A stretch of DNA of 64,000 nucleotides from an uncultured Sphingomonadales bacterium. GTDB lineage: Bacteria; Pseudomonadota; Alphaproteobacteria; Sphingomonadales; Sphingomonadaceae. This document shows positions 13,315 to 61,535 of this stretch, piece by piece. Within the stretch, counting starts at the first letter, position 1. Each line of letters opens with the position of its first letter. The stretch spans positions 124,001 through 188,000 of the forward strand of contig CAIMDB010000007.1 of assembly GCA_903839675.1 (NCBI GenBank). Direction: 5' to 3'. The notes under the pieces are model-generated. The model searched no databases, was not told where the DNA came from, and saw nothing but the letters and a program-made list of their open reading frames with translations. A program made the position numbers and the translations under genes.

Positions 13315-13418
13315 ACCGCCAAATCCTGCGCCGCAGGAAATGGAAGCGCGCCTTTACGCCGCGCCTCCGGGGTTTGCAAGGGCGGTCTTGGGGCCTCTAT
13401 CGACGCGGCGCGGGGAAG

Positions 13419-13458
13419 CGCAGGAATAGCCAAGCCCCGTGTCATGCACGGGGCGACG
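13419..13458 (+). repeat. intergenic palindromic repeat copy A (CCAAGCCCCGTGTCATGCACGGGGCGAC)
   Basis: Shares AATAGCCAAGCCCCGTGTCA.GCACGGGGCGACG with copy C. Confidence 0.85.
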
Positions 13459-13552
13459 CGGGTGGGAAGGATTGCCCGCCATAGACGGTCAAAGATGCAA
13501 AATTGAGGCTCAGGCCTGTTGGAGAAAGGACAACCATCCCCAAAAGGCTCTC

Positions 13553-13587
13553 CGTCGCCCCGTGCTTGACACGGGGCTTGGCTACCT
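13553..13587 (-). repeat. intergenic palindromic repeat copy B (inverted)
   Basis: CGTCGCCCCGTGCTTGACACGGGGCTTGGCTACCT is the reverse complement of copies A/C; similarity continues into AGAGCCTTTTGGGG. Confidence 0.85.
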
Positions 13588-39015: not shown

Positions 39016-40878
39016 TCAATCGCCGTTCTCATCCCGTTCAGCGAGCGATGCCAATTTTGCATCCGCTTCACGGCGCGCCTCCAGCAGGCGCATTTGTTCG
39101 GCAAACCCTGTTTCGTCCCAGTTTTCGGCGAGGCGAGCCGTTGCTGCTGCCAGCGCCGCGTCCAGTTCCGGCCGCGCGGCGAGCGCTTCGATCGCCATCC
39201 CCAAATCCCTCCGGGCGAGCTCCGGATTTGCCTGCCGCCGTGTGAAGGAAAAGGCAAGCCCATTCGCATCGACCAACTGTGCCGCAAGACCGCCGAAACC
39301 GCCACTTTCGCATATGGTGATCAATGCGGGAGAATCAAGCGCGGGATCGTCATAGGCGGCCTCGAGAAGAATGTTCCGCAAGGCTTCAAGTTCCCGGTCG
39401 GGCAAGGCGAGTGCCGATAGGGCTTCGGCGCAGGCCAGAATGACCGTCGGATGGTGGAGCAGGCCGGCCAGAATTGCGCGGGCGTAGATCGCATCGATGC
39501 CGCCGCCGCTGATGGATCGGGTGGCGTTGGTCGGTGGCGCCTCAAAGGTTTGGAAGCGCCCACCGCGCTGGCCGGGACGGCGTGGTTCAAAGCGCCGCTG
39601 CTCGAAACGGGGCTGGGCCGGGCGCCGGAAAGCATCATCAAAACGCTGCCGGAATTCGAGATCATACTGTTCTCGAACTGAGCCATTTTCAATAACTTGT
39701 GTATGATTTCTAAGGCGTTGTCTTAATCCTGCTCGTGCCTCCGGCGTCGCCAATGGCTCAGCTTCAAGCTCGTGCCGCCACAGCCGGTCGACCAGAGCCT
39801 CTGGCTTGTCGAGCAGCGCATCCATTGCAGCGCGTCCGCTGGATTTTATGAGATCATCCGGATCTTGGCCCTGTGGCAGCGTGACAAAGCTCAGCGAACA
39901 GGCGGGCGCTAAGCCGGGCAAGGCACGGCCAATTGCCCGCACAGATGCCTTTTGCCCGGCTGAATCTCCGTCAAAGCACAGGATGGGCGCGTCGGACAGC
40001 CGCCAGAGCCTAGCGATCTGGTGTTCGGTTAGAGCAGTGCCGAGCGGGGCAACGGCGTCTTCAATCCCCGCCTGAGCCAACGCGATGACGTCCATATAGC
40101 CTTCGACGACGATGACGCGGTTGGTCTTGCGGTTGGCAGGTCCTGCCCGGTCGATATTGTACAGCGTTCGCCCTTTATCGAAGAGCGGTGTGTCCGGGGA
40201 ATTCAAGTATTTGGGCTCGCCGGCCCCCAAGATGCGGCCCCCAAAGGCAATGACGCGCCCACGCGCATCGCGGATGGGGATCATCAGGCGGCCTCGGAAC
40301 CGGTCGTAACTTTCCTTGTCGTCAACCTTGATGAGGAGGCCTGCCTCAATCAGCATGTCCTCGCCGAAGCGGGCGAGGGCCGTCTTCAGATCGCCGCGGC
40401 TATCAGGGGCATATCCCATGCCGAATGTGGAAATTGTCGCGGGCTTGATGCCGCGCTGCTGCAGATATTGCCGCGCTTCGCCGCCCTTAACACCCTGCAA
40501 TTGCTCACTATACCAACTGGCAGCTGCGGCCATGACGTCATGAAGGGAATTGGCTCGCTCTGCCTTTTCGGCAGCGCGCGGGTCTGGCGCTGGAACCTCT
40601 AGGCCAGCCGCTTCCGCCAGTTCCTTAACCGCATCCATGAACGGCAGCCCACGCTGATCGGTCATCCAGCGTATCGCATCGCCGTGCGCGCTACAGCCGA
40701 AGCAGTGGTAAAAGCCCTTTTCGTCATTGACGTAAAAGCTGGGCGTCTTCTCATTATGGAATGGGCAGCAGCCCTTAAACTCGCGTCCGGCCTTCGTGAT
40801 TTTTACTGTGCGCCCGATCAACGCAGAGAGCTGCGTCCGCGCGCGTAATTCATCGAGCCAGGCAGGGGAGAGAGTCAT
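39016..40878 (-). CDS. dnaG: DNA primase
   Basis: CHC2-type zinc finger [54 protein letters not shown]. Confidence 0.97.
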
Positions 40879-41276
40879 GTGTTCAAGCCCCCCTCCCGCG
40901 TGCGGGAGGGGCTAGGGGTGGGCAAGTCCGTTAGGGTCTGAGAAATGGCGGCCACAACGCCCTCCAAGTTATCAAACACCTCTTGGTTGGAAAATCTGAT
41001 CACCTGATATCCGTCGTTAGCGAGAAACGCGTCACGTGCTTGGTCGAAGGCTATCCGCCCGTCATGTGAATTGCCATCCAGTTCAACAACCAATCTGGAC
41101 GCACGGCAAAGAAAGTCCGCGAAATAAGGGCCAATTGGCATTTGGCGGCTGAACTTGTGTCCGTTGAGACGGCTGCCTCGCAGGCAGGCCCACAAAGCGC
41201 GTTCGGCGGGTGTAGCCTCACGGCGAAGAGAGCGTGCGCTTGCTGTGTCGCGCGGTTTGAAGGCGCCTTTCACCAA
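40875..41276 (-). CDS. DUF559 (Vsr-like) endonuclease domain protein, TTG/GTG start
   Basis: ATPAERALWACLRGSRLNGHKFSRQMPIGPYFADFLCRASRLVVELDGNSHD; C-terminal [16 protein letters not shown] is encoded by the flanking repeat. Confidence 0.9.
   Translation of the reverse strand: MVKGAFKPRDTASARSLRREATPAERALWACLRGSRLNGHKFSRQMPIGPYFADFLCRASRLVVELDGNSHDGRIAFDQARDAFLANDGYQVIRFSNQEVFDNLEGVVAAISQTLTDLPTPSPSRTREGGLNT
40887..40923. repeat. left arm of compound palindrome (CCCCCCTCCCGCGTGCGGGAGGGGCTAGGGGTGGGC)
   Basis: Near-identical to left half of carA element. Confidence 0.9.
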
Positions 41277-41279
41277 ATC

Positions 41280-41316
41280 TGCCCACCCCTAACCCCTCCC
41301 GCAGGCGGGAGGGGGA
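41280..41316. repeat. right arm of compound palindrome (GCCCACCCCTAACCCCTCCCGCAGGCGGGAGGGGGA)
   Basis: Near-identical to right half of carA element. Confidence 0.9.
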
Positions 41317-41325
41317 CGTTTCGCC

Positions 41326-41778
41326 TCAGCTCAAAGCTGCCTTCACCAGCGCACTCGCCTTGGACATATCGAGCGACGACGCATGGCGTTCCTTCAGGAC
41401 GGCCATGACCTTACCCATATCCTTCACGCTCTCGGCGCCGATTTCCGCCTTGATGGCTTCGATAGCGGCCGTGGTTTCTTCCTCGCTCAACTGCGTGGGC
41501 AAGAAATCTTCAATCACGGTGATCTCAGAGGCTTCGATCTCAGCGAGCTCGGGGCGGCCGCCCTTCATATAAAGATCAATCGATTCGCGGCGCTGCTTGA
41601 CCATTTTCTGGAGCACTTCGACGACAAGTGTGTCGTCATCAGCCGGTGCCTTGCCCGTGCGGGCTTCGATGTCGCGGTTTTTGATGGCCGCAACAATCAG
41701 GCGGATGGTGGCGGTACGCGGCTTATCTCCGGCCTTCATGGCGGTGATCTGCGCGGCCTGAATGTCGTCGCGAATCAT
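41326..41778 (-). CDS. GatB/YqeY domain-containing protein
   Basis: TIRLIVAAIKNRDIEAR...VVEVLQKMVKQRRESIDLY...IEDFLPTQLSEEE. Confidence 0.94.
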   Translation of the reverse strand: MIRDDIQAAQITAMKAGDKPRTATIRLIVAAIKNRDIEARTGKAPADDDTLVVEVLQKMVKQRRESIDLYMKGGRPELAEIEASEITVIEDFLPTQLSEEETTAAIEAIKAEIGAESVKDMGKVMAVLKERHASSLDMSKASALVKAALS

Positions 41779-41913
41779 TTTGTTCTCTCGAAATGATGAA
41801 AGAAGGGCCTTTAGCTGGGGAAAACCGGTTTTAATAGATTGACGGTTTCGCCCCCCATCTCTAGCTGCGGTGCCTTAGCGACATCACCAGAATTTACGAA
41901 GGAGCGCCCCGAT

Positions 41914-43161
41914 ATGGCCGACCCCACCAGCACGCGCGCGCCCAGCGGAGCGACAGGCGTTCTGGTATTGGATTCGGGCGATATCCTATGGGGCAAGGGC
42001 TTTGGCGCGGCGGGTGCTGCGGTCGGTGAAGTCTGCTTCAACACCGCGATGACCGGCTATCAGGAAGTGATGACCGACCCCAGCTATGCCGGGCAGATCA
42101 TCAACTTCACCTTCCCGCATATCGGCAATGTCGGCACCAATCCCGAAGACATTGAAGCGACCAACCCGCACGCACTGGGTTGCATCGTCCGGCAGGACGT
42201 GACGGACCCCTCCAATTTCCGCAACACGCAGCATTTTGATGCATGGATGAAGGCGAATGGCCGCATCGGCCTGTCGGGCATCGATACACGTGAGTTGACC
42301 CGCATCATCCGCATGAAGGGCGCGCCAAACGGCGTGATCGCCCATGCACCCGATGGTGTGTTTGATATCGCCGCCTTGCTGTCTCAGGCGCGCGGCTGGC
42401 CGGGGCTGGAGGGCATGGACCTCGCCAAGGACGTGACGACGCTGCAGAGCTATGGGTGGGATGAAGGCCTTTGGAAGCTGGGTGAGGGCTATGCAAAATC
42501 CCCCCTCCCGCCTGCGGGAGGGGCCGGGGGTGGGCCTGCCTCCCTCGAACCCACCCCTAACCCCTCCCGCAAGCGGGAGGGGGACTATCGCCCCAAGGTC
42601 GTTGCCATTGATTATGGCATCAAGCGCAACATTCTTCGCAATCTGGTCGATGCCGGCGCGCAGGTGACGGTCGTTCCGGCCAGCGCGAGCTTTGATGACA
42701 TCATGGCGCACAGACCCGACGGCCTGTTCCTCTCCAACGGCCCCGGTGATCCGGCGGCAACGGGCACCTATGCCGTGCCGGTTATCCAGCAATGGCTGGC
42801 GACGAAGAAGCCGCTGTTCGGCATTTGCCTCGGTCACCAGATGCTCGGCCTCGCCATTGGTGCGACAACCGAAAAGATGCATCAGGGCCACCGCGGCGCG
42901 AACCATCCGGTCAAGCGGCTCGACGATGGCGCGGTTGAAATCACCAGCATGAACCACGGTTTTGCGGTTGATGCAGACACGCTCCCCGCCAATGCCCGCG
43001 CGACGCATGTCTCGCTGTTCGATGGCTCCAATTGCGGCTTCGAACTGACCGACCAGCCCGCCTTCAGCGTCCAATATCACCCCGAAGCGTCTCCCGGCCC
43101 GCAGGACAGCCACTATCTGTTCGAAAAGTTCGTGGGGATGATGGGAACCAAAAATGCCTAA
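41914..43161 (+). CDS. carA: carbamoyl-phosphate synthase small subunit, with in-frame palindromic insertion
   Basis: [35 protein letters not shown]; GATase [16 protein letters not shown]. Confidence 0.97.
42500..42584. repeat. compound palindromic element inserted in frame within carA
   Basis: CCCCCCTCCCGC-CT-GCGGGAGGGG-CC-GGGGGTGGG...CCCACCCC-TA-ACCCCTCCCGC-AA-GCGGGAGGGGGA; encodes [29 protein letters not shown]. Confidence 0.93.
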
Positions 43162-59618: not shown

Positions 59619-59621
59619 GAC

Positions 59622-60644
59622 TTAAACTCCAGTATCGCCGTCAAAGGCGCTCGCCGTTGTAGAATTGTTCAAATCAGCTAGGCGAATGGCTTCCAAGAAC
59701 GTTTCCTTGAGCCGAAGCATTTGATCAGACAGCCAATTGATCTGTTCTGGCCAGTTGCATTCATCTGGAGACGAGAAAAACTCGCCGCCGTTGATGTGAA
59801 ACGCGGTGCCCTGAGGGTTCGGAACCCAACCCAACGGCTCGCCAAAACTGGTTTCGAATACAGATTTTTCAGCAATCAGGGAATCCCAGATCGATTTGCC
59901 ACCCTCGTTGTAAAGGCTGAGCCCAGCCTTGACATATGGCTTCTTGCTGAACGAACGAAACGCCCAAATGTAAGCACGGCCGCCGCTAAGGATCGGGGCC
60001 CAATATTGAAAACCCTTTAACTCGGTGGAGGCTTGTCGTGCAGGAACGCCGATTTCCAAAAGACGCGAATGAAGTAGTGGCCAAAATTTCCGGTTCGAGT
60101 TTTCTTGGATGGCGACAGCTTCCGTTGAAACTGAACTCGCAGGGGTAATTTTGGACCAATCGTTCGGCTTTGCCACAGCCTCAAAAAGTGGGGCGGGCAG
60201 GCTATCACCAATCTTTACAGCCTGCACTTCCACTCCAAAAAATGCGTATCCATCTGAGCTAATACGATTGAGCCAGTCGACGGCGGCACGATGTTCGTCC
60301 CGAATTCGCTCAGCAACCCAGATGCAAATTTTTGCATCAAAATGGGGCGCGTATGTAAGCACCTGCCCGAGATGCCTGTGGTCGGCCGGATCTAGCTGGT
60401 TCTCAATTAGAACGATGTCTTCTGTTCCGATGACTTTGCAAATTATGTCTGCGAAGAATGGGCCCACTGGAGCCTGCTTCCCCAAAAGCTCTAGGCCAGG
60501 AAGACCTACGGAATCAGCCAGAAATTGAAGGTTCTCGAGTTCGCACAACCATGGGTCAAAAGAATAAGGCTCCGATGACCACACTTCTCTTATCGGAACA
60601 CGCGTCAGTTTTCCTAGCGTCGGGACCACATGCTGTGTTGCCAC
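59622..60644 (-). CDS. DUF4268 domain-containing protein, putative PD-(D/E)XK-type nuclease (GTG start)
   Basis: LGKLTRVPIREVWSSEPYSFDPWLCELENLQFLADSVGL...GPFFADIICKVIGTEDIVLIENQLDPADHRHLGQVLTYAPHFDAKICIWVAERI. Confidence 0.85.
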   Translation of the reverse strand: MATQHVVPTLGKLTRVPIREVWSSEPYSFDPWLCELENLQFLADSVGLPGLELLGKQAPVGPFFADIICKVIGTEDIVLIENQLDPADHRHLGQVLTYAPHFDAKICIWVAERIRDEHRAAVDWLNRISSDGYAFFGVEVQAVKIGDSLPAPLFEAVAKPNDWSKITPASSVSTEAVAIQENSNRKFWPLLHSRLLEIGVPARQASTELKGFQYWAPILSGGRAYIWAFRSFSKKPYVKAGLSLYNEGGKSIWDSLIAEKSVFETSFGEPLGWVPNPQGTAFHINGGEFFSSPDECNWPEQINWLSDQMLRLKETFLEAIRLADLNNSTTASAFDGDTGV

Positions 60645-60654
60645 TGAACAGTAC

Positions 60655-60687
60655 TCCCTAACCCTCTCCCCATCGGGGAGAGGGGAT
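60655..60687. repeat. palindrome CCCTAACCCTCTCCCC-AT-CGGGGAGAGGGGA upstream of DUF4268 gene
   Basis: Seen directly; resembles right arm at 41280-41316 and has the same orientation. Confidence 0.8.
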
Positions 60688-60692
60688 AAAGA

Positions 60693-61535
60693 CTAACCCT
60701 GACGCCGAGACATGAATGCCAGACGTTCGAACAACATGACATCCTGCTCATTCTTGAGCAATGCGCCGTGGAGCGGCGGGATGGCCTTGGATGAGTCCTT
60801 GTTCTGCAGCACGTCGAGCGGCATGTCTTCGGCGAGCAGCAACTTCAACCAGTCGAGCAGTTCCGAGGTGGATGGCTTCTTCTTAAGGCCAGGGACTTCG
60901 CGGACTTCGTAGAAGATATCCATTGCCTTGCCGACGAGGATCTTCTGGATGCCTGGGAAGTGAACGTCCACGATGGCCTGCATCGTGTCGCGGTCCGGGA
61001 ACTTGATGTAGTGGAAGAAGCAACGGCGCAGGAACGCGTCAGGCAGTTCCTTTTCATTGTTCGACGTGATGATGATGATCGGGCGTTCTTTGGCCGAAAT
61101 CGTCTCATGCGTTTCGTAAACGTCGAAGCTCATCCGGTCGAGCTCCTGAAGAAGATCGTTGGGGAATTCGATGTCGGCCTTGTCGATTTCGTCGATCAGC
61201 AGAACGGGCAAAACGGGGCTTTCAAAAGCCTCCCAAAGCTTACCCTTCTTGATGTAGTTTTTGATGTCGTGAACGCGTTCATCGCCCAACTGGCCATCGC
61301 GCAGACGGGCAACAGCATCATATTCATAAAGGCCCTGATGCGCCTTGGTCGTCGATTTGATGTTCCAGGTGATGAGCGGGGCGCCCAAGGCCTTGGCAAC
61401 TTCTTCGGCCAGCACGGTTTTCCCGGTGCCGGGTTCACCCTTCACGAGCAGCGGGCGGCGGAGGAGGGCGGCAGCATTGACGGCGACCTTCAGGTCGTCG
61501 GTGGCAACATAAGACTTTGTGCCTTCAAAGCGCAT
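60693..61535 (-). CDS. MoxR family AAA+ ATPase
   Basis: LLRRPLLVKGEPGTGKTVLAEEVAKALGAPLITWNIKSTTKAHQGLYEYDAVARL; DEIDKADIEFPNDLLQELD. Confidence 0.93.
   Translation of the reverse strand: MRFEGTKSYVATDDLKVAVNAAALLRRPLLVKGEPGTGKTVLAEEVAKALGAPLITWNIKSTTKAHQGLYEYDAVARLRDGQLGDERVHDIKNYIKKGKLWEAFESPVLPVLLIDEIDKADIEFPNDLLQELDRMSFDVYETHETISAKERPIIIITSNNEKELPDAFLRRCFFHYIKFPDRDTMQAIVDVHFPGIQKILVGKAMDIFYEVREVPGLKKKPSTSELLDWLKLLLAEDMPLDVLQNKDSSKAIPPLHGALLKNEQDVMLFERLAFMSRRQG

Follow-up and report, generated by a model that had tools for sequence, protein, structure and literature searches.

In the window, the whole 64,000-nucleotide stretch of an uncultured Sphingomonadales bacterium analysed here, a DUF559 nuclease gene between yqeY and dnaG is bounded by two inverted palindromic units, and a pair of the same units without a gene lies within carA. 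We read this arrangement, with a probability of roughly 0.55, as a small mobile element in which a homing-type DUF559 nuclease gene is bounded by two inverted units of the box C/PIT kind, the gene-less pairs being its non-autonomous forms. The element architecture is almost certainly real, and the coupling of DUF559 with palindromes is well supported by sequence comparison. From the same comparisons, DUF559 probably helps to mobilise the palindrome units, while a homing-like mechanism may be suggested more tentatively, at a little short of even chances.

The two copies share one architecture, one with the gene (40885-41315) and one without it (42497-42585), as the first-pass annotation had claimed in placing them 1.2 kb apart; their unit starts are separated by 1209-1268 bp (Table 1). 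Each unit consists of a 22-bp hairpin, CCCCTCCCGC-NN-GCGGGAGGGG, followed by a G-rich tail, YYRGGGGTGGGC. Around the DUF559 ORF the units form 36-nt inverted arms (40889-40924 and 41280-41315) with 94% complementarity, and the C-terminal 15 residues of the 133-aa protein are encoded by a palindrome unit, the stop codon abutting the dnaG start. The carA units are 15 bp apart, the carA frame is intact across the insert, and the pair folds into a single 89-nt hairpin (dG -40.4 kcal/mol, z -7.4). The 22-bp palindrome CCCCTCCCGCNNGCGGGAGGGG was found in four exact copies in the window against a chance expectation of 0.00, and in 25 copies in the 2.9-Mb genome, compared with 0 for a control pattern. 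This genome has only two DUF559 genes, both palindrome-framed, the second being located at C17:16539-16850. Terminal inverted repeats and gene-less derivatives, as in insertion sequences with MITEs, are both present. Elsewhere, single type A units at seven loci (L001, L003, L118, L119, L122, L123 and L129) have a longer partner, GCTGCGACTAG..AAGTCTCGCT, in common, and are composite repeats with a second stem.

Table 1. Position and strand of the features at the yqeY-dnaG and carA sites of the window.
Feature	Position	Strand	Profile match
dnaG primase, to the right of the variable yqeY-dnaG site	39016..40878	-	
DUF559 (Vsr/I-Bth0305I-like) nuclease ORF, 133 aa	40875..41276	-	PF04480 E 2.7e-37
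Type A hairpin-tail unit; hairpin 40890-40911; G-rich tail CTAGGGGTGGGC inward to the gene	40885..40924	+	
Second type A unit, inverted; hairpin 41293-41314; tail inward	41280..41315	-	
yqeY (GatB/YqeY family), to the left of the variable yqeY-dnaG site	41326..41778	-	
carA, holding the in-frame gene-less pair	41914..43161	+	
Type A unit 1 of the gene-less pair within carA	42497..42535	+	
Type A unit 2 of the gene-less pair within carA	42550..42585	-	

Among 89 sphingomonad DUF559 genes, terminal inverted repeats scored above the highest control in 78 and GC-rich hairpins stood on both sides in 64, compared with 0 of 96 control intervals of the same size from the same loci; the genes were a non-random set, most taken among the strongest DUF559 profile hits, so that these shares describe strong hits. 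Eleven of the 89 loci had no terminal inverted repeats above control. Unit tails pointed inward in 78 cases and otherwise in 19. Pro/Ser/Arg-rich protein tails, remarked on in the first-pass annotation, were recovered by a loose motif test in 53 of the 89 genes. In other bacteria, for which a narrower DUF559 alignment served as the query for the collection scan (the broad one was too diverse), 63 of 79 DUF559 loci exceeded all 142 controls, or more safely 62, one score (L291) being an artefact of an N run. These 79 loci came from alpha-, beta-, gamma- and deltaproteobacteria and from single MAGs labelled Nitrospirae, Chloroflexi, Hydrogenedentota, Gastranaerophilales and others, whose phylum labels are provisional because contigs may be misbinned.

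The counts of palindromes in genomes with and without DUF559, proposed as a check by the first-pass annotation, showed that abundance tracks the gene. In a test on 301 Sphingomonadales genomes, at least five type A/B palindromes were present in 94 of the 163 genomes with a strong DUF559 hit (E <= 1e-20, a cut set after the hit list had been seen) and in 5 of the 138 others (Fisher p 1.6e-26), with a Spearman correlation of 0.76 and, after stratification by genus, an odds ratio of 15.6 for any palindrome; among 234 other Pseudomonadota, palindromes of the E. coli-type motif GGGAGAGGGNNNGGGTGAGGG were abundant in 24 of 61 genomes with DUF559 and 6 of 173 without (p 3e-11; OR 18), and these p-values are generous, species being counted as independent with incomplete correction for phylogeny. 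Abundant palindromes without DUF559, named beforehand as evidence against the link, are therefore confined to a minority in either set. The palindrome-rich genomes that have no strong DUF559 (G250, G300, G466 and G344) are as expected of relics, which is not proof. In genera g3 and g7, DUF559 is represented in many genomes by just one weak hit (E 1e-12 to 1e-17), and in these genomes type A/B palindromes are near-absent; perhaps these hits represent a vertically inherited DUF559 subfamily lacking the element.

Palindrome type also matched the nuclease. Where the sampled DUF559 gene of a genome is bounded by type A units, the remainder of that genome is rich in type A palindromes, and the same applies to type B (p 9e-4, flank copies removed, likewise a generous value). 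With type classes given by simple rules, palindrome type required 20 changes on the DUF559 tree compared with 41.5 after shuffling, none of 200 shuffles being as low, and type A alone required 3 compared with 17.3. Clustering on the tree was absent for types D, E and F and weak for B2 and G; the matching of type to clade is thus strongest for A, B1 and C. A chance association of DUF559 with palindromes was ruled out by the controls at the level of the window, the genome, the loci and co-occurrence.

Comparison between species, rather than strains, revealed the filled/empty polymorphism that the first-pass annotation had looked to, with sites filled, empty or swapped. The yqeY-dnaG junction is empty in G311 and G303, holds the DUF559 gene with type A units in G000, and holds a different DUF559 gene with type D units (CCCCTCCCTT..AAGGGAGGGG) in G302 and G309, the YqeY of G302 being 99% identical to that of G000. 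In G052 and G304 (L050, L053), the junction is occupied by a GIY-YIG nuclease gene with TCGAG-type palindromes, plus a left-over type A unit. At the carA site, the type A pair of G000 is matched by a type D pair at the identical place in G302; carA of the other aligned relatives has no such pair, G312 having an unrelated short insertion. Five more sites (a sufS-like start, glyS, gap-pgk, a fifth junction and hslV-hslU) carry pairs of differing families in most congeners, with G303 empty at all four of them where it was aligned and G307 empty at two; the glyS inserts always have a length that is a multiple of three. As for the second DUF559 site, on the nadB side, three genomes (G000, G052 and G311) have it filled, two (G303 and G307) have it empty, and G302 has an unrelated ATPase-like gene there.

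At the seven sites where G000 and G302 differ in type (yqeY-dnaG, carA and the five others), neither species was ever empty, and at three further sites type A is common to both. By the criterion used, a 64-kb stretch contained one long inverted-repeat site in each of G000 and G302 and six in G052; with sites so scarce, chance would hardly explain the shared ones. Judging from these alignments, the content of fixed sites has been swapped between sister species more often than new sites have been filled, a point of difference from the copying into new sites first proposed. Homing is a better fit to such in-place swapping than classical transposition is. No target-site duplication was visible at the aligned sites, which include no close filled/empty pair for comparison, and no target or insertion motif could be defined at the sites compared. 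Two other length differences in the window were observed. At ~13412-13553, another palindrome family (GCCCCGTGTCATGCACGGGGC) coincides with a length difference among G000, G302 and G052. G302 and G052 both lack a ~1.07-kb insertion that occupies 59619-60694; it contains a DUF4268 gene (340 aa) that has a CCCTCTCCCCATCGGGGAGAGGG hairpin on its upstream side and may be a further nuclease-like gene accompanied by a palindrome.

GIY-YIG genes offer a parallel, this fold being a homing-endonuclease fold too (PMC6083498). Of the 28 GIY-YIG loci testable in the order Sphingomonadales, 13 had inverted palindromic ends above all 55 controls, and the ends were other repeats, e.g., TTCGTCTCGAG and ATTCCCGCGAAGGCGGGAAT.

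These observations allow another account, in which a RAYT/HUH transposase or replication slippage spreads the palindromes as landing sites and DUF559 is a passenger or homing invader. Some genomes do have palindromes without DUF559, sites are common to different repeat families, and the GIY-YIG gene beside a type A unit in G052 and G304 looks like a nested invasion. However, the nuclease clade is tracked by palindrome type, the association recurs across many taxa, and the units lie mostly tail-inward on both sides like an element's own ends, so we consider this account unlikely. It has also to be asked whether a species complex simply holds repeat alleles that ordinary recombination in the flanks exchanges, with the nuclease uninvolved. 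Homologous import of this sort would produce different families at identical sites in sister species, as observed, but leaves unexplained both the first entry of each family into the same site and the association with the nuclease, and we regard it as improbable.

The DUF559 protein itself is consistent with the mobile-element reading. The window ORF scored 127.4 bits against the PF04480 profile (gathering score 20.6) and has the conserved acidic/His active-site set (E..W, RQ, DF, ExDGxxH); E15, W19, F32, Q35, D44, F45, E55, D57, G58 and H61 are invariant in 14 diverse DUF559 sequences including that of the window. DUF559 profile matches included 3hrl (NGO0050, E 8e-35) and the homing endonuclease I-Bth0305I (E 3.7e-4). 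With a predicted structure (pLDDT 86.8) as query, Foldseek ranked 3hrl, an uncharacterised DUF559 structure, first (TM 0.78/0.86) and I-Bth0305I second (0.71/0.76), E. coli Vsr being a poorer fold match than I-Bth0305I. By profile and predicted model, I-Bth0305I is thus the nearest solved relative with known activity, and the predicted fold is of homing-endonuclease type. The Caulobacter DUF559 protein VsrA (CCNA_02930) is required for a DNA-damage response if the methylase ScmA is absent and is proposed to act in T:G mismatch repair together with ScmA (PMC12907096); the requirement is genetic evidence of a DUF559 protein acting on DNA. A defence-system reading was rejected, PADLOC giving no match.

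The fold also bears on the proposal of a single-strand transposon of the IS200/IS605 or REP/RAYT type, whose hairpin ends would leave as ssDNA with DUF559 cutting the strands. A hairpin with a conserved tail does recall REP with its guide tetranucleotide, and the paired element becomes one long hairpin when folded. Against this, DUF559 has a PD-(D/E)XK/EDxHD-type hydrolytic fold and is no HUH tyrosine nuclease, so a covalent intermediate is not expected, and a target motif was not found; there is little probability that the units move in this way.

A literature search with the arm sequence led to the intrastrand-triplex motifs of E. coli (TM_ECO), for which box C and PIT are earlier names (PMC4666352). 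Strain K-12 has 23 such motifs, five of them inverted pairs, and the motifs are reported to be unstable between strains and to have no association with transposons, phages or plasmids (PMC4666352). Their layout is a CCCTCxCCC hairpin, a 3-nt linker and a third-strand tail, GGGTGAGGG; the window units have the same layout, with arms CCCCTCCCGC and tail GGGGTGGG, and some DUF559 loci elsewhere carry the exact box C motif. On this sequence likeness the window unit appears to be of an already known type, the box C/PIT/intrastrand-triplex kind, of whose structure hairpin folding was the part computed here. The autonomous and gene-less nuclease-palindrome system put forward in the first-pass annotation is well supported as regards terminal inverted repeats, matching types, co-occurrence and filled/empty sites, but its unit is probably not new. 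TM_ECO no. 9 is located in the fabI-ycjD gap of K-12, and ycjD is the annotated K-12 DUF559 gene, with one clear and one degenerate box C unit, both 3' of the gene. In the stretch between ycjD and the box C unit (L347 2240-2470), the coding sequence for the YcjD C-terminus recurs as a diverged duplicate, likely the remnant of a second DUF559 copy. Of 5,426 E. coli genomes, 3,366 carry ycjD, and in those without it eefRABC may take up the place (PMC12817139). In the DUF559 literature covered (titles and abstracts, few subscription journals being in reach), no link to palindromic repeats was found. That the palindromes are terminators or cis-regulatory hairpins whose association with DUF559 is incidental is very improbable: many are intergenic, GC-rich hairpins, but pairs lie in-frame within carA and glyS, no control interval had hairpins on both sides, and PIT elements lacked promoter or terminator activity in earlier work, as cited in PMC4666352.

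For the mobile element, the following course may be envisaged. The nuclease would recognise either hairpins of its own type or a site whose allele is empty or of a rival kind, and would then nick or break the DNA there. PD-(D/E)XK nucleases hydrolyse DNA and do not join it, so insertion must depend on host repair, which would copy the element or a gene-less pair into the cut site. The outcome would be homing-like conversion in place, with new sites captured occasionally. More speculatively, and with doubt outweighing confidence, these may be a new class of selfish nuclease-plus-palindrome 'swap' elements, whose DUF559 and GIY-YIG versions compete for docking sites, cut rival or empty alleles, replace one another in place and have generated orphan families such as box C/PIT.

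No mobiliser has been established for the box C/PIT repeats of E. coli, known from the 1990s onwards, and DUF559 is widespread and labelled 'unknown function'. DUF559 is a plausible mobiliser for this repeat family, which was without one until now, and the link gives both a testable role, K-12 ycjD included. If true, a non-HUH enzyme joins the short list of ways in which bacterial palindromic repeats spread. Moreover, unrelated repeat families replacing one another at the same sites, in-frame in glyS and carA, are unexpected and require a mechanism.

Among known systems, the Rickettsia palindromic elements are in-frame repeat insertions in protein genes and in this resemble the carA and glyS pairs; we know of no gene that mobilises them. 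I-Bth0305I, an EDxHD, Vsr-related enzyme, resembles DUF559 in profile and fold, and site-specific spread via repair would fit, whereas it is listed as a mobile-intron protein and, to our knowledge, has no palindromic ends or gene-less derivatives. VsrA of Caulobacter is a DUF559 protein with genetic evidence of DNA damage in cells, but what is proposed for it is mismatch repair with ScmA, and palindromes are not a topic of the available text (PMC12907096). The box C/PIT/TM_ECO motifs have the hairpin-and-tail layout of the window units, form some inverted pairs, are abundant and vary between strains; they differ in that PMC4666352 links them to no nuclease or mobile element, whereas units of the window type frame DUF559 and also stand in-frame in genes. 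In REP/BIME sequences with RAYT (TnpA-REP), as in the DUF559 elements, a small gene lies between inverted palindrome-plus-tag units, gene-less units are dispersed and the types co-vary, but the enzyme there is a Y1/HUH transposase, and here it is DUF559, with a hydrolytic nuclease fold of the PD-(D/E)XK/EDxHD type.
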